The position numbers and the translations under genes are program-made. Below the pieces are notes generated by a model. It did no database searches. It was not told the DNA's origin and saw nothing but the letters and a program-made list of their open reading frames with translations. From the NCBI GenBank assembly GCA_028228555.1, contig JAOJBP010000003.1, forward strand, positions 1 through 64,000: 64,000 nt of DNA. The letters run 5' to 3'. Each line of letters begins with the position of its first letter. Positions within the stretch are counted from its first letter, which is position 1. Positions 1,359-59,958 of this stretch are shown one piece after another. Origin of the DNA: Candidatus Thioglobus sp. Lineage in GTDB: Bacteria > Pseudomonadota > Gammaproteobacteria > PS1 > Pseudothioglobaceae.

Positions 1359-4157
1359 TTATGCAAAGTCTTCTGTAGTTACACAAGAACAGAAAAGGTT
1401 TCGATCACCATAGACGTTATCGATACGCTTTACGGGAGGGAAGTACTTGTTAGCCACTAAAGACTCAACAGGATATAAAGCCTCTTGTCGCGTATATGGA
1501 TAAGTCCATTCACTGGTCATTTCGTGTGCTGTATGCGGTGCATTCTTAAGTGGGTTATTATCTTTATCCCAACGACCGTCAATTACCTTTTGAATTTCAT
1601 CATGAATGCTAATCATTGCCGTAATAAAGCGATCTATCTCACGCTTTGATTCACTTTCAGTAGGTTCGATCATTAGTGTGCCCGCTACTGGAAATGACAT
1701 AGTTGGCGAATGAAAACCATAATCCATTAAGCGTTTAGCGATATCTTCTTCAGAAATCCCACTTTTCTCTTTAAGAGGTCGAATGTCAATAATACATTCA
1801 TGTGCAACCATGCCTTGATCGCCACGATACAAAATTGGATAACTCTGAGCTAACTCATGCGCAATGTAATTAGCGCTGACAATAGCAATTTCAGTTGAAC
1901 GTTGCATGCCGTATTTACCCAGTAGTTTAATATACGACCACGAGATTGGCAAAATAGAAGCAGAGCCATACATCGCTGAAGAAACAGCATTAGAGTTAGA
2001 CACTAATGGGTCACCTGGTAAGAACTCAGCTAAGTGAGCCTTAACACCGATTGGACCCATACCTGGACCACCACCGCCATGAGGAATGGCAAACGTTTTA
2101 TGCAGGTTAAGGTGCGATACATCTGCACCAAACTCACCCATACGGGTAACCCCAACCATGGCATTTAAATTAGCACCGTCTAGGTAAACCTGACCGCCAG
2201 CGGCATGAATAATTTCACAAATTTTCTTTATTTCTACTTCAAAAACACCATGTGTTGATGGGTACGTAACCATAATGGCTGCAAGCTTATCAGCGTGCTT
2301 TTCAACTTTAACATTTAAATCATCAATATTAACGTTGCCCGACTCGTCACATTTAACAATCACCACCTTCATGCCAGCCATAATAGCGCTCGCAGGATTT
2401 GTACCGTGTGCTGATGAAGGAATTAAACAGATGTTACGATCATGATCACCACGAGACTGATGATATGCATGAATAGCTAAAAGACCTGCAAACTCTCCTT
2501 GAGAGCCTGCATTAGGCTGTAATGACACAGCATCATAACCCGTCACTTCACATAAATCATGCTCCAAATCTTTAAACAACTGCTGATAGCCTTTGGTTTG
2601 GTCAACTGGCGCATAAGGGTGTAGTTTTGAAAACCCTGGCAAGCTAATTGGATACATTTGCGTCGCAGCATTAAGCTTCATTGTGCAAGAGCCTAATGCA
2701 ATCATTGAGTGATTAAGGGCGATATCTTTATTCTCTAAACGCTTCAAGTAACGCATCATTTCAGTTTCACAATGGTAATCGCTAAACACCGGGTGAGTTA
2801 AATACTTAGAGGTACGCAGCATATTTTCAGACAAAGCGCCCTCTGATTCTGCTAATTTATCTATTGAAAAAACAGCCAAAAGTGCAAGTAATTCTGCCTC
2901 AGTAGTAGTTTCATCTACTGAAATACTCAACTGATTATCACAAAGCAAGCGAAGATTAATACCTGCTTTTTGCGCACTATCAAATAATACTTTTGCTTGA
3001 TCAGTAACTAATGTAATGGTATCAAAAAATTGATCAGCTGCTAGCTCGAACCCTGCTAAGCTTAAGCTCGCTGCAAGACTACTAGCCTTAGCATGCACCT
3101 TGGTAGAAATTTTCTTTAGCCCTTTAGCGCCATGATAAACACCATAAGCCGCAGCAAGCACTGCCAATAAAACTTGTGCAGTACAAATATTACTGGTGGC
3201 TTTGTCACGACGAATATGTTGCTCACGAGTTTGTAAAGACATACGCATTGCTGGATTTCCCAAAACATCTTGTGAAACACCAATAAGCCTTCCAGGCACC
3301 ATACGTTTAAACTCATCACGCGTTGCTAGAAAAGCAGCATGCGGTCCACCAAATCCCATCGGTACGCCAAAGCGCTGAGAATTACCAACAGCGATATCAG
3401 CACCCATGTCGGCTGGAGTTTTGATCAAAGCGAGTGCTAATACATCACAAGCAATAATCGTTAACACACCATTAGCTTTTGCCTTGGCAATATCATTGCT
3501 TAAATCACGCACTTCACCATTCGTGCCTGGGGACTGCATAAGTGCAGCAAAGTAATCATTACAATCATTATTTTGGATATCATCCACAACTAGCTCAATT
3601 CCTAATGGTTTGGCGCGAGTTTGTAAAATGGTAATTGTTTGTATATTGGTGTTGCTGTCAATCAAAAATCGGTTGGATTTATTTTTGCGATTAGCACGCT
3701 TTGCCATCATCATTGCTTCTGCACAAGCTGTTGGCTCATCTAATAATGAAGCGTTAGAAATGTCCATTCCTGTTAAATCGATAATCATTTGCTGAAAGTT
3801 AAGCAACATCTCTAATCGACCTTGTGAAATTTCAGCCTGATAAGGTGTGTAAGCTGTATACCAACCTGGATTTTCTAAAATATTACGCTGAATAACGGTT
3901 GGCATTAATGTGCCGTAATAGCCTTGACCAATAAAGTTTGTCGCTATGACATTCTCACCAGCAAGTTTTGTTGCCAACTCTAAGCTATCACGCTCGGTTA
4001 GACCTTCATCTACATTCATGCGATTACCAAATAAAATAGATTCTGGAACCGTTTTAGAAATAACCTCATCCACCGATTTGCAGTTAATACTATTTAGCAT
4101 AGAAGTGACGTCTTGGGCGCTTGGGCCAATATGTCTGTCTAGAAATTCATTACTCAT
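1359..4157 (-). CDS. gcvP: Glycine dehydrogenase (decarboxylating), P-protein
   Basis: The P-protein of the glycine cleavage system is PLP-dependent. It decarboxylates glycine and passes the aminomethyl group to the lipoyl H-protein. The 932-residue single-chain form (fused alpha and beta halves) is close to the usual 950-960 residues. It starts MSNEFLDRHIGPS and contains the PLP-binding HLNLHKTFAIPHGGGGPG segment, with Lys687 as the expected Schiff-base lysine. The start has no clear Shine-Dalgarno sequence. It stands alone: gcvT and gcvH are not in this window. An IclR-like palindrome lies about 90 bases upstream of the start, linking it to the aceA locus at 57.8-60 kb (inference). Confidence 0.97.
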   Translation of the reverse strand: MSNEFLDRHIGPSAQDVTSMLNSINCKSVDEVISKTVPESILFGNRMNVDEGLTERDSLELATKLAGENVIATNFIGQGYYGTLMPTVIQRNILENPGWYTAYTPYQAEISQGRLEMLLNFQQMIIDLTGMDISNASLLDEPTACAEAMMMAKRANRKNKSNRFLIDSNTNIQTITILQTRAKPLGIELVVDDIQNNDCNDYFAALMQSPGTNGEVRDLSNDIAKAKANGVLTIIACDVLALALIKTPADMGADIAVGNSQRFGVPMGFGGPHAAFLATRDEFKRMVPGRLIGVSQDVLGNPAMRMSLQTREQHIRRDKATSNICTAQVLLAVLAAAYGVYHGAKGLKKISTKVHAKASSLAASLSLAGFELAADQFFDTITLVTDQAKVLFDSAQKAGINLRLLCDNQLSISVDETTTEAELLALLAVFSIDKLAESEGALSENMLRTSKYLTHPVFSDYHCETEMMRYLKRLENKDIALNHSMIALGSCTMKLNAATQMYPISLPGFSKLHPYAPVDQTKGYQQLFKDLEHDLCEVTGYDAVSLQPNAGSQGEFAGLLAIHAYHQSRGDHDRNICLIPSSAHGTNPASAIMAGMKVVIVKCDESGNVNIDDLNVKVEKHADKLAAIMVTYPSTHGVFEVEIKKICEIIHAAGGQVYLDGANLNAMVGVTRMGEFGADVSHLNLHKTFAIPHGGGGPGMGPIGVKAHLAEFLPGDPLVSNSNAVSSAMYGSASILPISWSYIKLLGKYGMQRSTEIAIVSANYIAHELAQSYPILYRGDQGMVAHECIIDIRPLKEKSGISEEDIAKRLMDYGFHSPTMSFPVAGTLMIEPTESESKREIDRFITAMISIHDEIQKVIDGRWDKDNNPLKNAPHTAHEMTSEWTYPYTRQEALYPVESLVANKYFPPVKRIDNVYGDRNLFCSCVTTEDFA

Positions 4158-4247
4158 GAGCTTTACACAATTAAATTAAATTTAAGATCAAATTTTATAT
4201 TATTTTTCAAGTAGTAATACCAGTAGATATTGCTGCAATAATTAAGG

Positions 4248-4262
4248 TTTTATAATATGAAA
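4248..4262. promoter_or_regulatory. Putative IclR-type operator upstream of gcvP
   Basis: The 15 bases TTTTATAATATGAAA match the perfect palindrome TTTCATAATATGAAA at 59182-59196 with one mismatch. They lie in the 139-base gap between the 3' end of hinT and the gcvP start. The next bases, AATAAGTTA, are also identical to those after the related site at 59242-59256. That an IclR-type protein binds here is inference. No glycine riboswitch fold was recognised in this gap. Confidence 0.45.
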
Positions 4263-4296: not shown

Positions 4297-4635
4297 CTAG
4301 CCTGGAGGCCAAGTTAATGCGCGACCGCCTAAACAATGAAGATGAATATGATATACGGTTTGTCCGCCATCTTCATTGCAGTTCATTACCACACGATAGC
4401 CATCGTCTGCAAAACCTAAATCTTTGGCAATTTTGCTAGCTGTTAAAGTCAGCTTGCCGATTAATGCTGGATCTTTAGCATCATTAATGGTTGAAATATG
4501 CTCTTTTGGAATCACTAAAAAATGATGTGGCGCTTGAGCACTAATATCATGAAAAGCAAACACATCTTCATCTTCAAAAATCTTATTAGCAGGAATCTCT
4601 CCCTTGATGATCTTACAAAATAAACAATCTGACAT
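4297..4635 (-). CDS. hinT: HIT family protein (HinT-like purine nucleoside phosphoramidase)
   Basis: This is a small histidine-triad hydrolase acting on adenosine or guanosine phosphoramidates and on aminoacyl-AMP by-products in the cytoplasm. Its 112 residues start [15 protein letters not shown] and carry the family signature [10 protein letters not shown], with the three catalytic-site histidines, near the C-terminus. Length and both motifs fit bacterial HinT. It ends 139 bases before gcvP and follows the SQR-like gene by 10 bases on the same strand, so it may be the last gene of that transcript. Function is assigned from the family. Confidence 0.93.
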
Positions 4636-52458: not shown

Positions 52459-53337
52459 ATGGAAAATAATATCCACCTTATTGAACAATTCCTCGATCAT
52501 TACTGGCTATCTTCAGGCGCCAGTAAAAATACCTTATCTGCATATCGATCTGATTTAATGCTATATTCGAAATGGTTAGATAAAATATCTATAGAAAGTT
52601 CTAGTGATACTAGTATTCTTAAATATTTTCAATATCGACAGATTAGCCCTTCTACTCAAGCGCGAATTCTTACTTGTTTTAGAATTTTTTATCAATATTT
52701 AGTATCTCAAAAACTTACAAGTATCAATCCAACGGCCAAGCTTCATCACCCAAAACAAGTACAAAAATTACCTGTTTTTTTAAGTATCAAGGAGGTTGAA
52801 AAACTTCTAGATGCACCTGACCAGAAAACCATTTTTGGTATGAGAGATCGAGCAATGCTAGAGCTTTTATACTCTTGCGGATTGCGTGTTACTGAACTTG
52901 TTAGCCTGGAATATCATCATATTAATATCAATGACGAATATATTCGAATTTTAGGCAAGGGAAATAAAGAACGATTCTTGCCAATGGGTGATTTAGCGAT
53001 AGAATACCTTTCTCAATATGAAAAAGAAGCTCGCCCATTTTTAATTAAAAAAGGTCAAACTGATGGATACTTCTTGTCTAATCGAGGCAGTAATATGAGT
53101 CGTCAAAATTTCTTTTACATGATTAAATCTTATGCTAAAAAAGCAGGAATTGACAAAACACTTTCTCCGCACAGCTTAAGACATGCATTTGCAACCCATT
53201 TAGTACAACAGGGTGCAGATCTAAGAAGTGTACAACTCATGCTTGGCCATAGTGATATTTCAACGACACAGATATATACTCACATTCAAAATGTCCAGCT
53301 GAAATCGCAACATAGCAAACATCACCCAAGAGGCTAA
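52459..53337 (+). CDS. xerD: Tyrosine recombinase XerD
   Basis: XerD resolves chromosome dimers at dif with XerC. The 292-residue protein has an N-terminal SAM-like DNA-binding domain (to about 105) and a catalytic domain with the full set Arg143 (SCGLRVTEL), Lys167, His238 and Arg241 (SPHSLRHAFATHL), His264 (LGHSDISTT) and Tyr273 (QIYTHI). The VQLMLGHSDISTTQIYTH end and lack of nearby mobile genes support XerD over a phage integrase. Confidence 0.93.
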   Translation: MENNIHLIEQFLDHYWLSSGASKNTLSAYRSDLMLYSKWLDKISIESSSDTSILKYFQYRQISPSTQARILTCFRIFYQYLVSQKLTSINPTAKLHHPKQVQKLPVFLSIKEVEKLLDAPDQKTIFGMRDRAMLELLYSCGLRVTELVSLEYHHININDEYIRILGKGNKERFLPMGDLAIEYLSQYEKEARPFLIKKGQTDGYFLSNRGSNMSRQNFFYMIKSYAKKAGIDKTLSPHSLRHAFATHLVQQGADLRSVQLMLGHSDISTTQIYTHIQNVQLKSQHSKHHPRG

Positions 53338-53356: not shown

Positions 53357-55480
53357 TTATAAAGATAGCTCAGCTAATCTTTTTTGTCGATACTCTTTCA
53401 AAGTTGATTCGGTATAACCGTTTGGCTCATTCACACCTCTATAAACTAAAGATAGTGCTGCATTAAATGCCATTCCATTATAGCTTGGTGCCATATTTTG
53501 ATACAGTGGATCATGTGCATTTTGTGCATCTACAACGAGTGCCATCTCTTTAAATACTTGCTTTATTTGCGCCTTACTGCAAATCTCATGATGCAGCCAA
53601 TTAGCCATATGCTGGCTTGAAATCCTTAGCGTCGCCCTATCCTCCATTAGCCCTACTTGATCAATGTCCATAACTTTTGAACAGCCTACACCTTGATCAA
53701 TCCAACGCACCACATAACCTAAGATACTTTGAGCATTGTTATTCAGTTCTGTCTTAATCTCATCCATGCTTAAAGTGCTGGTGGAGTCTAATATTGGAGC
53801 AAGCAATAAATCATGCTCATCAGTTTCCAGATGCTTTTTCATTAATTGTTGCTGTCTAGCGAAAACATCAAATCGATGATAATGTGTCGCATGCAAGGTA
53901 GCAGCTGTTGGCGAAGGCACCCAGGCACAATTAGCACCTGCTTCTAAATGGCTAAGCTTACTCCCAAGCATTTCACGCATTTGATCAGGTTGTGCCCACA
54001 TACCTTTACCAATTTGTGCTTTTTTATACATGCCACAATCTAAACCAACTTGAACATTTAAAATCTCATAAGCTTTAATCCATGGCTGATTTTTAATTTT
54101 CGCCTTAGGGAGCATAACTCCAGCTTGCATGCTGGTGTGTATCTCATCACCAGTGCGGTCAAGAAAACCTGTATTAATAAAAATTACCCGTTTAGCTGCT
54201 GCTTTAATACATGCTGCTAGGTTAACGCTTGTACGGCGCTCTTCATCCATAATGCCAATTTTAATTGTATTAGCTTTAAGTCCAAGAGCCTGCTCAACCC
54301 TTCCAAACAGCTTAACACTAAACGCCACTTCATCAGGGCCATGCATTTTAGGTTTAACAATATAAACATTGCCTTTTTTTGAATTAGCGCCTAAACGCTG
54401 AATATCATGCAGAGCGATTAACGTTGTTATTAATGCATCTAAAATACCTTCTGGCACTTCTTGATTATCTGGAGTTTTGATTAAATCAGTTAGCATATGG
54501 TGCCCAACATTACGAACCAACATCAAACTACTTCCTGACAAAGTACCAGGCTTGCCTTTTGTATTTGTATAGCTTTTGTCTGAATTTACTCTTCTTACAA
54601 CTGACTTCTCGCCTTTGTTAAATTTAATCTCTAAATCACGCTTCATTAGCCCTAAAAAGTTACGATAGGCATTAATTTTTTCTTCGCTAGAAACCGTAGC
54701 AACTGAATCTTCAAAATCAATAATAGTTGTTAATGCTGACTCCAAAAAGACATCTTGAATGCCTTTAGTGTCTGTATTGATAACTAGTTCGATATGCAGA
54801 TTATGGTGTTGAATTAAAATACTATGATCGGTACTACCAACAAAACTGTCTGAGTTTTTTAGCTGAGTTGTGCTCTTATCATTTAATGTAAATACTGGTT
54901 CATTTGAGTTATTATCAATAGAAATAACTTGATCATAAGAGCCCGAACTTAGCGGAATTGCCTCGTCTAAAAAAGTGTTACTCCAGCTGATGACTTGAGC
55001 GGCACGCTCGTCACCCTTGATTTTTCTATCGATAACATCACTACCATACAAGGTGTCATACAAGCTACCCCAGCGTGCATTAAGAGCGTTAAGCGCAAAA
55101 CGAGCACTGGAAATAGGTACCACTAATTGTGGTCCAGCTATTTTAGCAATCTCATCATCGACCTGATCTAGCTCAAGCTCGAAAGGGGTTGGTTTAGGTG
55201 ATAGATAACCAATTTCTTCTAAGAATATTTTATAAGCTTGTAAATCAAATGGTCCAGTATTATCCTTATGCCACTTATCAATTTGAGATTGTAGCTTATC
55301 GCGTTGAAGCAATAAATCTTGATTTTCCTGAGTTAACTCGGAAACAATCGTTAATAATTTAGAGAAAAATTCATCTACCTTAATATCCAAACCCGGAAGA
55401 ACTTCTTGCTCTATAAACTGATACAAGTTACGATCAACTTGGTAATCTGCTAAATTTTTATATCCTTCAACTAAAATCAT
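53357..55480 (-). CDS. glcB: Malate synthase G
   Basis: The enzyme joins glyoxylate and acetyl-CoA to malate, completing the glyoxylate shunt. The 707-residue length and the isoform G pattern are clear: IIDFEDSVATVSSEEKI, VYIVKPKMHGPDEVAF, GIMDEERRTSVNLAACI, FINTGFLDRTGDEIHTSM and GANCAWVPSPTAATLHATHYH. Isoform G (single long chain) rather than the shorter isoform A is used here. It overlaps the RraA-like gene by 4 bases. Confidence 0.96.
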   Translation of the reverse strand: MILVEGYKNLADYQVDRNLYQFIEQEVLPGLDIKVDEFFSKLLTIVSELTQENQDLLLQRDKLQSQIDKWHKDNTGPFDLQAYKIFLEEIGYLSPKPTPFELELDQVDDEIAKIAGPQLVVPISSARFALNALNARWGSLYDTLYGSDVIDRKIKGDERAAQVISWSNTFLDEAIPLSSGSYDQVISIDNNSNEPVFTLNDKSTTQLKNSDSFVGSTDHSILIQHHNLHIELVINTDTKGIQDVFLESALTTIIDFEDSVATVSSEEKINAYRNFLGLMKRDLEIKFNKGEKSVVRRVNSDKSYTNTKGKPGTLSGSSLMLVRNVGHHMLTDLIKTPDNQEVPEGILDALITTLIALHDIQRLGANSKKGNVYIVKPKMHGPDEVAFSVKLFGRVEQALGLKANTIKIGIMDEERRTSVNLAACIKAAAKRVIFINTGFLDRTGDEIHTSMQAGVMLPKAKIKNQPWIKAYEILNVQVGLDCGMYKKAQIGKGMWAQPDQMREMLGSKLSHLEAGANCAWVPSPTAATLHATHYHRFDVFARQQQLMKKHLETDEHDLLLAPILDSTSTLSMDEIKTELNNNAQSILGYVVRWIDQGVGCSKVMDIDQVGLMEDRATLRISSQHMANWLHHEICSKAQIKQVFKEMALVVDAQNAHDPLYQNMAPSYNGMAFNAALSLVYRGVNEPNGYTESTLKEYRQKRLAELSL

Positions 55481-55950
55481 ACTAACTCCTTCACAATAAT
55501 AACGCCATCTTGATCGGCATACAAATAATCCCCAGGGACAAAATTAACGCCAGAAAAACTTAAATTAAGACCCTTCTCTCCGACGCCCTTCTTAATACTT
55601 TTCAAAGGGTGCGTGCCCAAAGCACGAACCCCAATTAACATTTTATTAATCATCTCAGAATCTCTGATCAAGCCATAAATAATAATGCCAGACCAATTAT
55701 TTTTAACTGCTTTGGCAGCGAGCTGATCTCCCAACATGGCACAACGTTTTGAACCACCTGCATCTACCACTAAAACACCACCCTGGCCATCAGTATCAAG
55801 CAGCTCTCTCACTAAAGAATTATCTTCAAAACACTTAATAGTATGGATAACACCAGAAAAATCGATCTTGGCACCATAACCATTATAAATAGGCTCCAAA
55901 TACTGGACATTAGGATGGAGTTGGTCTGAAATATCGCTGGTTTTTTGCAT
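55477..55950 (-). CDS. rraA: RraA family protein
   Basis: The 157-residue protein has the RraA/HMG-aldolase fold with VVDAGGSKRCAMLGDQLAAKA and YGLIRDSEMI. The Gly-Asp-x-Leu and Arg-Asp pair corresponds to the metal-binding site of the aldolase branch. RraA proper inhibits RNase E; other members are 4-hydroxy-4-methyl-2-oxoglutarate/oxaloacetate-decarboxylating aldolases. The location between aceK and glcB might favour a metabolic role, but this is inference. Confidence 0.85.
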   Translation of the reverse strand: MQKTSDISDQLHPNVQYLEPIYNGYGAKIDFSGVIHTIKCFEDNSLVRELLDTDGQGGVLVVDAGGSKRCAMLGDQLAAKAVKNNWSGIIIYGLIRDSEMINKMLIGVRALGTHPLKSIKKGVGEKGLNLSFSGVNFVPGDYLYADQDGVIIVKELV

Positions 55951-55955
55951 ATAAG

Positions 55956-57710
55956 TTAGGCGGATTGTGAATAAATTTGGGACATTCTGAATCTTTGTCG
56001 ATACGGGTAATAATCAATAATCTTGCCATTTTGAATATTATCTTGTACAGATTTCCAATAATCAGCACTTAGTAATTTGTCATAGGATTTGGCAAAAATT
56101 TGCTTACTATCATTTTGACTAAACATAAATAGTTTAAATTCTTCAGGAAAAACATCTTCTGGGCCAACGTAATACCAAGGTTCAGCAGCCATTTCATCCT
56201 CTTCATGTCGTGCATCTGGAATTTTTCTGAATACAGGTTTATCCATGGTGGTGATTTCATCATAGTCATAAAATACAACACGATTTTGTCGAGTAACACC
56301 AAAATTTTTAGTGAGCATATCACCTGGAAAAATATCTGCATTAATCAACTCATCAATTGCCCTTCCATAATCATTAACAATGTGCTTAAGATCTTCTTTA
56401 TTAGCATTTTGGATATATAAATTAAGCGGAATCATTTTATTTTCCATATACAAATGCTTAATAATAAGTAAGTCACCCTCAATAGTGATATTTGATCCAA
56501 CCTTTAATTTTAACTCATTGAGTAGATCTTCATCCAAATCACGAATAGGAAAGGCAACATTTGAAAACTCCCATGTGTCTGCTAAACGACCAACCTTACA
56601 ATGATTTTTAACAAAGAAATATTTATCTTTAACTTGTTGCTTGGTGGCAGTTTTAGGTGGGGAAAAATTATCATTAATTACTTTAAACACATAAGGAAAC
56701 ATCGGAAAAGTAAAGACAGTCATCACCATACCTTTAATACCAGGAGCAAGAATTAGCTTTTCGCCGGTACTACGAGAATATTTCAAAAACCTTCGATATA
56801 ACAAAGTTTTTCCATGCTTATGCAGACCAATAGAGCTATAAAGCTCAGCTTTAGTCTTGCCTGGAAGGAGTGTTTTTAAAAAATCAACAACAGCTGCAGG
56901 ATAATCTGTATCAATAAAAAAGTATGCCCTAGAAAAGCTAAAAACTGTGGATATATTGGCAACATCAGTCAACAATGCATCAACATATATTCCTGTTTTT
57001 TCATCATTTAATAGGGCTATTAATACAGGTCGAACTTGACTATTTTTTAATACAACCTGACCGACGATATAGGCAGCTTTTCTTCTAAAAAAGGTACTTT
57101 TAACCAATTGCAATTCAAACTCTTCATCTTCCGATAAATTTAATTGTTTAACAAATTGCATTTTTAGCCGCGACATATCGCGATCTAAATTTTGATAGGG
57201 CGTATCAAAGTCTAGTTTTAAAAAACTTGCTTGCAGTGTTTGCTCTAATTGATGAGTTTTAATATAGTGACTAACTATAATTGGATCATCCATATCAATA
57301 AAAGTAGTTGATATGGATGGCTTAACAAAAATAAAATTATTTTTATAAAAACGCTTATCAAACAATAAACAAAAAACTGAGTTATAGAACGTTTCAGCTA
57401 ATTCTGGCTGCTTATAATTTAACGTTAAACTAATATAAGCAAGCTTAGTGTTTATCCAAACCTGTTCATCAAACATTTCTGTATTGAGCTCTTTTTTAAG
57501 CTCAAGACAGAAATGTTTGACTTGCTGATCATAAAAATAAAGGCGAGCCTTATAATCATCTAGTAATTGCTGCCATTCGCAGTGATCAAATCTAGATTTA
57601 GCTTGCACAGAGGCCTGTTGAAAAGCACGATAATGCCTCTCAAAGCCCGCCAATATTTTTTTGGAAGTCGCTTCAGAAAGATTGCTTGATTGCGTGCTCA
57701 ATTCTGTCAT
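55956..57710 (-). CDS. aceK: Isocitrate dehydrogenase kinase/phosphatase
   Basis: AceK phosphorylates and dephosphorylates isocitrate dehydrogenase, directing isocitrate to isocitrate lyase. The 584-residue protein has the regulatory N-terminal half and the ATP-binding region APGIKGMVMTVFTFPMFPYV. The kinase-like block GDMLTKNFGVTRQNRVVFYDYDE contains the catalytic Asp/Asn. Presence of AceK implies a phosphorylation-controlled IDH in this organism. It follows aceA by 69 bases, and a weak copy of the palindrome lies in between. Confidence 0.96.
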   Translation of the reverse strand: MTELSTQSSNLSEATSKKILAGFERHYRAFQQASVQAKSRFDHCEWQQLLDDYKARLYFYDQQVKHFCLELKKELNTEMFDEQVWINTKLAYISLTLNYKQPELAETFYNSVFCLLFDKRFYKNNFIFVKPSISTTFIDMDDPIIVSHYIKTHQLEQTLQASFLKLDFDTPYQNLDRDMSRLKMQFVKQLNLSEDEEFELQLVKSTFFRRKAAYIVGQVVLKNSQVRPVLIALLNDEKTGIYVDALLTDVANISTVFSFSRAYFFIDTDYPAAVVDFLKTLLPGKTKAELYSSIGLHKHGKTLLYRRFLKYSRSTGEKLILAPGIKGMVMTVFTFPMFPYVFKVINDNFSPPKTATKQQVKDKYFFVKNHCKVGRLADTWEFSNVAFPIRDLDEDLLNELKLKVGSNITIEGDLLIIKHLYMENKMIPLNLYIQNANKEDLKHIVNDYGRAIDELINADIFPGDMLTKNFGVTRQNRVVFYDYDEITTMDKPVFRKIPDARHEEDEMAAEPWYYVGPEDVFPEEFKLFMFSQNDSKQIFAKSYDKLLSADYWKSVQDNIQNGKIIDYYPYRQRFRMSQIYSQSA

Positions 57711-57779: not shown

Positions 57780-59084
57780 TTAGAACTGCTCTTCTTCAGT
57801 TGAACCTGTTAATGCTGTCACTGATGATTGACCACCCTGAATAACTGTTGTTACATCATCAAAGTAACCTGCACCAACTTCTTGTTGATGTGATGCAAAA
57901 GTATACCCTTTGTCTGCTGCTGCAAATTCTGGCTCTTGAACCTTCTCTACGTAATGTTTCATGCCTTCGCCTTTAGCATATTCGTGTGCTAAATCGAACA
58001 TGTTGTACCACATATTGTGAATACCAGCTAACGTAATAAATTGATACTTATAACCCATTGCAGCAATATCTTCTTGGAAAGAAGCAATTTGAGAATCACT
58101 TAAGTTTTTCTTCCAATTGAACGATGGTGAACAGTTGTATGCTAATAATTGATTTGGATTTTCAGCTAAAACCGCTTCTGCAAATTCTCTCGCAAAACCT
58201 AAATCTGGTTTGCCAGTTTCACACCAAACTAAATCAGCATATGGTGCATAAGAAACACCACGAGAAATAGCTTGATCAAGACCGTTTTTAACTACATAAA
58301 ATCCTTCTGGAGTGCGCTCACCAGTAACAAATGGCTCGTCAATTGGATCTACATCTGAAGTAATTAATGTTGCTGCTTCTGCATCCGTACGTGCTAGTAA
58401 CACTGTTGGTACACCCATTACATCAGAGGCCAATCTCGCAGCATTTAATTTTTCAATCGCATCTCTAGTTGGTACTAATACCTTACCACCCATATGGCCA
58501 CATTTTTTAACAGAAGCCAATTGGTCTTCAAAATGTACACCTGATGCACCAGCAGTAATCATATTTTTCATTAATTCATATGCGTTCAGTACACCACCGA
58601 AACCTGCTTCAGCATCTGCCACAATTGGTAAAAAATAATCAACAAAGCCCTTATCTCCAGGATTCATACCTTTAGCATGTTGAATTTCATCTGCGCGTTT
58701 AAATGTATTGTTGATACGACGCACCATTGTTGGTACAGAATCGTAAGCATATAAAGACTGGTCCGGATACATAGTTTCTGATGTATTACCATCAGCAGCC
58801 ACTTGCCAACCTGATAAATAAATAGCCTCAATACCTGCTTTAGCTTGTTGCATAGCTTGACCACCAGTAATAGCACCCATACAGTTAACATAGCCTTTTT
58901 TAGAGCTGCCGTTAATTAAGTTCCATAATTGATCAGCACCATCTTTGGCATGTGTATATTCAATAGGCTTAGATCCGCGAAGTCGTATAACATCTTCAGC
59001 GCTATAGTTACGCTTAACGTCTTTCCAACGTGAATTCTCAGCCCAATCCTTTTCTAATGCTTTAATTTGATCTTGTCTGCTCAT
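57780..59084 (-). CDS. aceA: Isocitrate lyase
   Basis: AceA splits isocitrate into glyoxylate and succinate. The 434-residue protein has the signature KKCGHMGG with catalytic Cys195, the metal-binding [23 protein letters not shown] and the [11 protein letters not shown] segment. It is the short proteobacterial form (E. coli 434 residues). It is divergent from the IclR-type regulator across a 178-base gap with several palindromic sites. Confidence 0.97.
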
Positions 59085-59181
59085 AGTATTTTCCTCTTTA
59101 TGGATTATTATTTAATTACTTTTTTTTACTTGAATTAATGATACTGTTTTTTTTTCTTTTATTTCATTATATAATATGTTT

Positions 59182-59256
59182 TTTCATAATATGAAATATA
59201 TCTTTCTATATAAATTTTAATTTCATAATATAATGTCATTTTTTTATAATACGAAA
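59182..59256. promoter_or_regulatory. Operator array between aceA and iclR-like gene
   Basis: A perfect 15-bp palindrome TTTCATAATATGAAA lies at 59182-59196. TTTCATAATATAATG (59221-59235) matches its left 11 bases, and TTTTATAATACGAAA (59242-59256) matches it at 13 of 15. The second and third begin 21 bases apart, two helical turns. A further partial form (TTTCATTATATAATA) begins at 59162. The last site ends 6 bases before the regulator start, suggesting autoregulation. Confidence 0.6.
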
Positions 59257-59262
59257 TAAGTT

Positions 59263-59958
59263 ATGTTATCAAATTCTCTGAATCCGGAAAAGAAAGTAAC
59301 TGCTATTGAAAAAAGTTTAATTATTATGTCAATCTTTTCGATGGAAAAACCTTCCTTAAGCCTTAAAGAAATTTGTGATCAAGTTGGTTTTAACGCATCA
59401 ACTACATACAGAATATTGCATACCTTATCAGAATATGGATACATTATTAGAACAGCTGATAAAAACTACTGCATTGGCACAACACCTTTATCTCTAAGTG
59501 CGATCTATCAAAAAACTAACCAATTAACGCAAATTAGTCCTATTGTTGATCATATTAGAGATATGACTAACGAAACGGCATCATTTTTTATTCAACAAGA
59601 TAATGAGAGAATTTGCTTATATCGTGCACATTCGCGTGATGAAATTAGGCACAATATCGATGTAGGAACACAACTAGAACTTAATCGTGGCGCCTCAGGT
59701 AGGGTTATTTTGGCTTATGGTCAGCGCTTACAAGATAAGAGTGGCTATTTTAAAAATATCCGCGATAAAGGTTATTATCTGTCAGTAGATGAACACAATG
59801 CTGCTTTATTTGCTGTAGCTAAGCCTATTATGTCTGAAAGTGGACATCTTATTGGCGCTCTCACAATATCAGGACCAATAAGTCGTTTCAATGAAGAAAA
59901 AATTCAATCCTTTTTAGACTTATTAGCCGAACAAATTGAAAAAGTAAAAATTCTTTAA
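59263..59958 (+). CDS. IclR family transcriptional regulator
   Basis: The 231-residue protein has an N-terminal winged HTH (about 10-75: VTAIEKSLIIMSIFSMEKPS, LKEICDQVGFNASTTYRILH). An effector-binding domain with the IclR features LELNRGASGRVILAYG and AVAKPIMSESGHLIGALTISGP follows. IclR proteins that neighbour aceA control the glyoxylate shunt in response to glyoxylate or pyruvate. It is divergent from aceA and likely controls it, itself and perhaps gcvP through the shared palindrome. Confidence 0.93.
   Translation: MLSNSLNPEKKVTAIEKSLIIMSIFSMEKPSLSLKEICDQVGFNASTTYRILHTLSEYGYIIRTADKNYCIGTTPLSLSAIYQKTNQLTQISPIVDHIRDMTNETASFFIQQDNERICLYRAHSRDEIRHNIDVGTQLELNRGASGRVILAYGQRLQDKSGYFKNIRDKGYYLSVDEHNAALFAVAKPIMSESGHLIGALTISGPISRFNEEKIQSFLDLLAEQIEKVKIL

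Follow-up and report, generated by a model that had tools for sequence, protein, structure and literature searches.

The glycine decarboxylase gene gcvP of a Candidatus Thioglobus genome is preceded by a short, imperfect palindrome that resembles two sequences next to aceA and an iclR-like regulator gene, which raises the question whether a single IclR-type protein acts at both places. The question was addressed in the window, i.e., the whole 64,000-nucleotide stretch of DNA under analysis, in the 1.25 Mb genome it belongs to and in a sample of 83 genomes of Pseudothioglobaceae, Candidatus Ruthturnera among them. Our preferred answer, to which we assign a probability of roughly 77%, is that the sequence before gcvP is a binding site of the IclR-type protein encoded at 59263-59958. 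As judged from the sequences, this protein would control itself, the aceA gene run, acnB, gltA and, in relatives, ppsA, with gcvP having been added in one clade.

A shared motif at gcvP and at the aceA/iclR locus

The candidate operator TTTTATAATATGAAA occupies positions 4248-4262, approximately 90 bp 5' of gcvP (1359-4157, minus strand, 932 aa; TIGR00461 1356.7 bits, PF02347) and within the 139-bp gap that separates gcvP from a hinT-like HIT-domain gene (4297-4635, minus strand; PF01230). The site itself is assigned to no strand; in the direction of gcvP it reads TTTCATATTATAAAA and spans -105 to -91 from the ATG. Both genes lie on the minus strand, and it is gcvP that is downstream of the site, while the hinT-like gene borders it with its 3' end and is not its target. 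A glycine riboswitch upstream of gcvP was not found by Rfam, which yields only two tRNAs in the window.

At the other locus, the perfect palindrome TTTCATAATATGAAA (59182-59196) lies in the gap between aceA and iclR, and TTTTATAATACGAAA (59242-59256) directly precedes the iclR start. Each is accompanied by a weaker element, TTTCATTATATAATA (59162-59176) at 20 bp from the former and TTTCATAATATAATG (59221-59235) at 21 bp from the latter, and none of the four has a strand. The gcvP site differs from the palindrome at 59182 and from the site at 59242 by one base each, exactly as the first-pass annotation had it. The nine identical bases it saw after both the gcvP site and the iclR-proximal site amount to only seven (TAAGTTAgt after 4262, TAAGTTAtg after 59256). 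Since this TAAGTTA flank is not kept at the gcvP sites of relatives, we attribute it to chance and do not count it as part of the site.

According to PMC8222616, IclR-family operators of group 1 (WTT-11-AAW) follow the consensus WTTYCRYW3RYGRAAW, with the centers of tandem sites 18-22 nt apart. Positions 59181-59197 match this consensus throughout. At gcvP, one half-site departs from it at the inner G and at the outer W, and the operator is single, with no partner at 18-22 nt.

Is such a sequence to be expected by chance? When up to two mismatches to the raw 15-mer were allowed, 18 matches were found in the genome as compared to 23 for a reversed control. The loose count is uninformative because it shows no excess over the control, and it was replaced by a matrix built from 24 iclR-upstream sites, all of them from genera other than that of the window, so that the test at gcvP is independent of the window. 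Genome-wide counts were obtained by pattern searches with mismatches; the matrix was applied to the window and to chosen upstream regions. Within one mismatch of the symmetric word TTTCATANTATGAAA, four places were found in 1.25 Mb as compared to one for the control, namely the aceA/iclR, purB/acnB and hinT/gcvP gaps and a position upstream of an ABC-transporter gene. The matrix gives the gcvP site 17.5 bits, the second-best match in the window, whereas chance alone would yield 0.1 matches of at least 17 bits in 64 kb and 0.005 in the intergenic part of the window. A further candidate, TTTCTCAATATGAAA at 53009, was discarded as an operator as it lies inside a recombinase gene.

These numbers bear on the alternative that the 15-mer is a chance match in AT-rich DNA, or merely a promoter part, at which no IclR-type protein acts. 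The intergenic DNA is indeed AT-rich, the core of the site resembles a -10 hexamer, and the failure of the loose matches to outnumber the reversed control fits this explanation as well. However, the expectation of 0.005 speaks against it, and together with the comparison among relatives given below it leads us to regard this alternative as unlikely.

Conservation of the site and of its presumed regulator

The operator beside iclR is conserved across the family. An intact orthologue of the regulator is present in 29 of the 83 genomes, and nearly all of these carry a palindrome just 5' of the regulator gene, down to approximately 60% protein identity. This palindrome is most often perfect, with a second, weaker element about 20 bp further upstream. 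The proposal that gcvP and the aceA/iclR gap carry one and the same motif was borne out. In the genus, aceA, malate synthase and iclR co-occur, and in genus g1 aceA is found in every regulator-bearing genome; G068, in which aceA lies at a contig edge, was left out of the presence/absence comparison of the regulator.

Six more genomes of genus g6, each with one small chromosome (G041 [L055], G036, G037, G039, G040 and G042), contain only fragments of iclR, and some of them retain the aceA-side operator (20.9 bits in G036). The fragments may reflect decay of the regulator, in genomes possibly of symbionts.

To assess conservation upstream of gcvP, regions of up to 300 bp were scored with the matrix. 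The best match lies at -105 or -106 in each of the five IclR-positive congeneric species, scoring 17.5 bits in G000, G072 and G062, 12.2 in G065 and 5.7 in G066. The G066 copy, TTTTATAATATAAAG, is badly decayed, with both half-sites damaged and a shuffle p of about 0.12, and this lends some support to a chance match. In six IclR-negative congeners no gcvP site was found; their best matches (-6.6 to 0 bits) lie at other positions. Fourfold-degenerate sites of gcvP are saturated among the five species (mean identity 0.47), and yet the 15-mer has an identity of 0.87, as compared to 0.33 for the 40 bp before it and 0.82 for the 25 bp after it. A fixed position in five species at such divergence, next to essentially random preceding bases, argues against chance.

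The 25 bp after the site are nearly as conserved as the site itself and are found again in some species without IclR. Some of the conservation around the site may therefore belong to the promoter, as the promoter alternative would have it. However, the six IclR-negative congeners, which in part keep this following element, are without the site. A conserved element, with the sequence CCTTgTTTTTTATAACAATATCTA in relatives, occupies 4222-4247 on the minus strand, between operator and gcvP promoter; it also occurs in some IclR-negative congeners and may be a candidate site of another gcvP regulator.

The five IclR-positive species form one clade in a combined tree of gcvP and gltA (96/96). In a tree of gcvP only they are not grouped, and a single clade is not rejected by the test (p 0.10). 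Five positives against six negatives were therefore dropped as independent events: with the positives in one clade, presence and absence of the gcvP site count as a single evolutionary change, either one gain or one loss. Retention of the site within the clade points to selection; the genomes are MAGs with contig ends, and the evidence on the gcvP site comes from this one clade.

Outside the genus the picture changes. IclR-positive genomes of g4, g5, g6 and g8, among them G004, G044, G045 and genomes of g5 and g8, have no comparable site 5' of gcvP or of a gcvT-gcvH-gcvP run. In most g5 genomes gcvP is the last gene of a run that begins with gcvT-like and gcvH-like genes, upstream of which nothing comparable was found. 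Conservation upstream of gcvP, which had been put forward as a test, therefore holds for all five IclR-positive congeners and fails for the other IclR-positive genera. Inside the genus, neither an abundance of unrelated matches nor a want of conservation before gcvP where iclR is kept, the two outcomes named beforehand as fatal to the idea, was encountered.

A search with PF01614 detected one IclR_C protein in the window's genome, the product of 59263-59958, and one in each IclR-positive congener; in the five IclR-negative congeners searched it detected none. This result weighs on a second alternative, namely that another regulator, with a palindrome of similar form, acts at gcvP and that the site resembles the aceA/iclR operator by convergence. 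AT-rich palindromes are used by other regulator families too, and the adjacent conserved element suggests a second regulator at gcvP. Against this stand the single IclR_C protein detected in the genome, the loss of the site where the IclR protein is absent and the high score obtained with a matrix of iclR-adjacent sites alone. We thus consider convergence very improbable and retain the IclR-type protein as the one predicted to bind the gcvP site.

The predicted regulon and its possible mode of control

On the minus strand next to the aceA/iclR gap, aceA (isocitrate lyase, 57780-59084; PRK15063 761.5 bits) is followed by aceK (isocitrate dehydrogenase kinase/phosphatase, 55956-57710; PRK02946 707.7 bits), an RraA-like gene (55477-55950; PRK09372 204.8 bits) and glcB (malate synthase G, 53357-55480; PRK02999 1021.2 bits). 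This same-strand order represents a full glyoxylate bypass. The idea that glyoxylate is forced out through glycine for want of malate synthase was rejected, as the window encodes malate synthase G; with malate synthase G and aceK in the aceA run, glyoxylate need not leave through glycine.

Further copies of the motif precede acnB in 6/6 IclR-positive genomes, G004 among them (a tandem spaced by 21 bp), gltA in 5/5 of the genus (a weaker tandem, spaced by 20 bp) and ppsA in all four readable congeners, i.e., three IclR-positive ones and G068. The ppsA count omits G000 and G066, where contig ends are too close, and ppsA of G004 has no motif. Tandem centers are 20-21 bp apart at aceA/iclR, acnB, gltA and ppsA, with pairs in most cases. 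Many g5 species, as well as G045 of g6, keep an acnB site of varying strength at a similar position, and in some g5 genomes the gltA site lies further upstream. The names ppsA, acnB, gltA, aceA, aceK, glcB and gcvP rest on family models, and those of neighboring genes in L014, L088, L108 and L340-L343 partly on sequence reading.

The first-pass annotation had suggested that the protein could balance C2 and C1 metabolism, and a dedicated regulator of this kind, with isocitrate lyase and glycine decarboxylase as its main targets, would fit the presence of the site at both aceA and gcvP, within the window as well as among congeners. However, acnB, gltA and ppsA carry the motif as well or better, gcvP is without it in other IclR-positive genera, and malate synthase offers glyoxylate its usual exit. 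We therefore hold such a dedicated role to be quite unlikely. The better conservation at acnB, gltA and ppsA takes gcvP out of the core and points to citrate/glyoxylate/PEP control: the center of the predicted regulon is citrate, glyoxylate and PEP metabolism, with gcvP peripheral. Because acnB keeps its site in g5 and G045 and gcvP does not, acnB, aceA and iclR look like an old core and gcvP like a young, single-site addition in one clade.

Several other copies of the motif were recorded. Sites of 17-20 bits lie approximately 150 bp 5' of an ABC-transporter substrate-binding-protein gene in G000 and G072 (L339:2620 and L343:1661), where they adjoin a 2-methylcitrate-like gene cluster; G065 has no such site. 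Possible regulon members in g5 are a gene for ATP-type PEP carboxykinase with a copy upstream (G030, L109) and aminotransferase-like and glycolate-oxidase-like genes with a copy between them (G028, L108). In G004 (L088) a perfect palindrome lies about 290 bp 5' of genes that, judged by eye, resemble those of a 2-oxoacid:ferredoxin oxidoreductase. Other recurrences were set aside as coding constraint: TGTCATAATATGAAA, recurrent in g5, is internal to a conserved CDS; the ATGAAA start of one and the same gene overlaps with TTTCATACTATGAAA in G032 and with TTTTACACTATGAAA in the genome of the window; and TTTCATAATATGGAT in G062, G065 and G066 falls in an overlap of two CDSs beside acs-like and actP-like genes.

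Over its first 150 residues, AcnB of G062, G065, G066 and G004, the last from another genus, is 87-91% identical to that of the window's genome, as compared to about 61-66% in IclR-negative congeners (L163-L168 vs L172, L176, L180, L188 and L192). This difference suggests that acnB has been exchanged, possibly with its operator along with it.

Motif identity, positional conservation, co-occurrence with the regulator and the sole detected IclR_C protein were computed, whereas binding itself is inferred; the regulator would occupy the site in dimeric or tetrameric form, on a single face of the DNA. At iclR, aceA and acnB, pairs of the promoter-like form TTCATA-N17/18-TATAAT coincide with the tandem operators, an overlap that would suit repression by occlusion at these three genes; it is suggestive only, since the motif itself resembles promoter hexamers. 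Downstream at acnB, a TTATAC is common to IclR-negative species and, if taken as the promoter element, would place the sites near -46 and -67.

The arrangement at gcvP is of another kind. Alignment points to a probable -10 element, TAAAAT at 4192-4197 on the minus strand, which is common to several IclR-negative congeners, while no convincing -35 hexamer was found. The implied start lies approximately 69 bp downstream of the operator center in congeners. A site centered near -69 is an arrangement seen more commonly with activators or auxiliary elements. Since the site is single and lies this far upstream of the start of a promoter that also occurs in IclR-negative relatives, we would favor activation from upstream or an auxiliary role. 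For the predicted gcvP site we would give activation an even chance, while repression seems the less probable outcome and binding with little effect is doubtful. The likely purpose would be to set gcvP expression against the capacity of the citrate and glyoxylate pathways.

The regulator in comparison with known systems

The regulator (P0001, 59263-59958, plus strand, 231 aa) belongs to the IclR family, with PF09339 at 39.8 (cut-off 22) and PF01614 at 72.3 (cut-off 24). Models of characterized members fit it less well: it scores 65.7 bits against 380 for PRK11569, the E. coli-type IclR equivalog, 85.8 against 350 for the BhcR equivalog NF045644 and 111.1 against 284.75 for TIGR02431 (PcaR/PcaU/PobR), which is nevertheless the best-scoring model. 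In E. coli IclR, glyoxylate and pyruvate are contacted by G160, A161, D212, S239 and S241 (PMC11323563). In an alignment of four sequences the regulator has A, S, S, T and S at these positions. Moreover, about 20 residues of the effector domain (E. coli ~182-202) are missing, a gap common to orthologues from other genera. With 24% identity to E. coli IclR, the low PRK11569 score, this gap and one of five contacts (S241) identical, the protein is, on its sequence, not an E. coli-type IclR, although an operator at glyoxylate bypass genes, a trait of that type, is found at the locus.

Taken further, one IclR-type protein whose ligand pocket has changed might serve this family as a central-carbon regulator. 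In its bound form it would keep down acnB and the glyoxylate bypass and, within one clade, simultaneously switch on gcvP from an upstream site, so that a single protein shifts glyoxylate/glycine flux between two outlets, malate synthase and the C1 pool. We regard this complete scheme as speculative and rather unlikely.

New here are the predicted regulon as such, the family of its regulator in this lineage and the apparent capture of gcvP within one clade; no paper naming both Thioglobus and IclR was found in the literature searched. The analysis offers a concrete predicted regulon (the aceA gene run, acnB, gltA, ppsA, gcvP and iclR) for relatives of vent-clam symbionts. It also appears to catch this regulon while gaining a gene, as gcvP carries the site in a single clade, one member of which already has a decaying copy.

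As in the E. coli IclR/aceBAK system, an IclR-family regulator is tied to aceA, aceK and malate synthase and to 15-bp AT-rich palindromes, whereas the predicted regulon here is wider. The E. coli IclR box, given as TGGAAATNATTTCCA in PMC8222616, has the opposite half-site order to the present operator. The main operators agree with the group 1 WTT-11-AAW sites of that source in both consensus and 20-21 bp tandem spacing, unlike the single, imperfect gcvP site, and its available part describes neither this regulon nor this lineage. BhcR of Paracoccus, also of the IclR family, serves glyoxylate assimilation as a shown activator of the bhc cluster and a proposed autorepressor (PMC11323563); it controls the beta-hydroxyaspartate cycle, unlike the aceA/acnB/gltA/gcvP regulon predicted here. 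RccR of Pseudomonas, an RpiR-family protein, is autoregulated, controls the glyoxylate shunt (aceA, glcB) and gluconeogenesis (pckA) and responds to KDPG, and gcvP is not among its listed targets (PMC5489143). Autoregulation and joint control of the shunt and of gluconeogenesis are what it has in common with the regulator as predicted here, while protein family and motif differ. HexR of Shewanella and Vibrio, likewise of the RpiR family and thus of another family than the present protein, has a central-carbon regulon expanded to the glycine cleavage system, according to PMC5343134 (citing Leyn 2011), which provides a precedent for joining central carbon and glycine cleavage. The comparison suggests that an IclR-type protein may do here the work done elsewhere by RpiR-type RccR or HexR.
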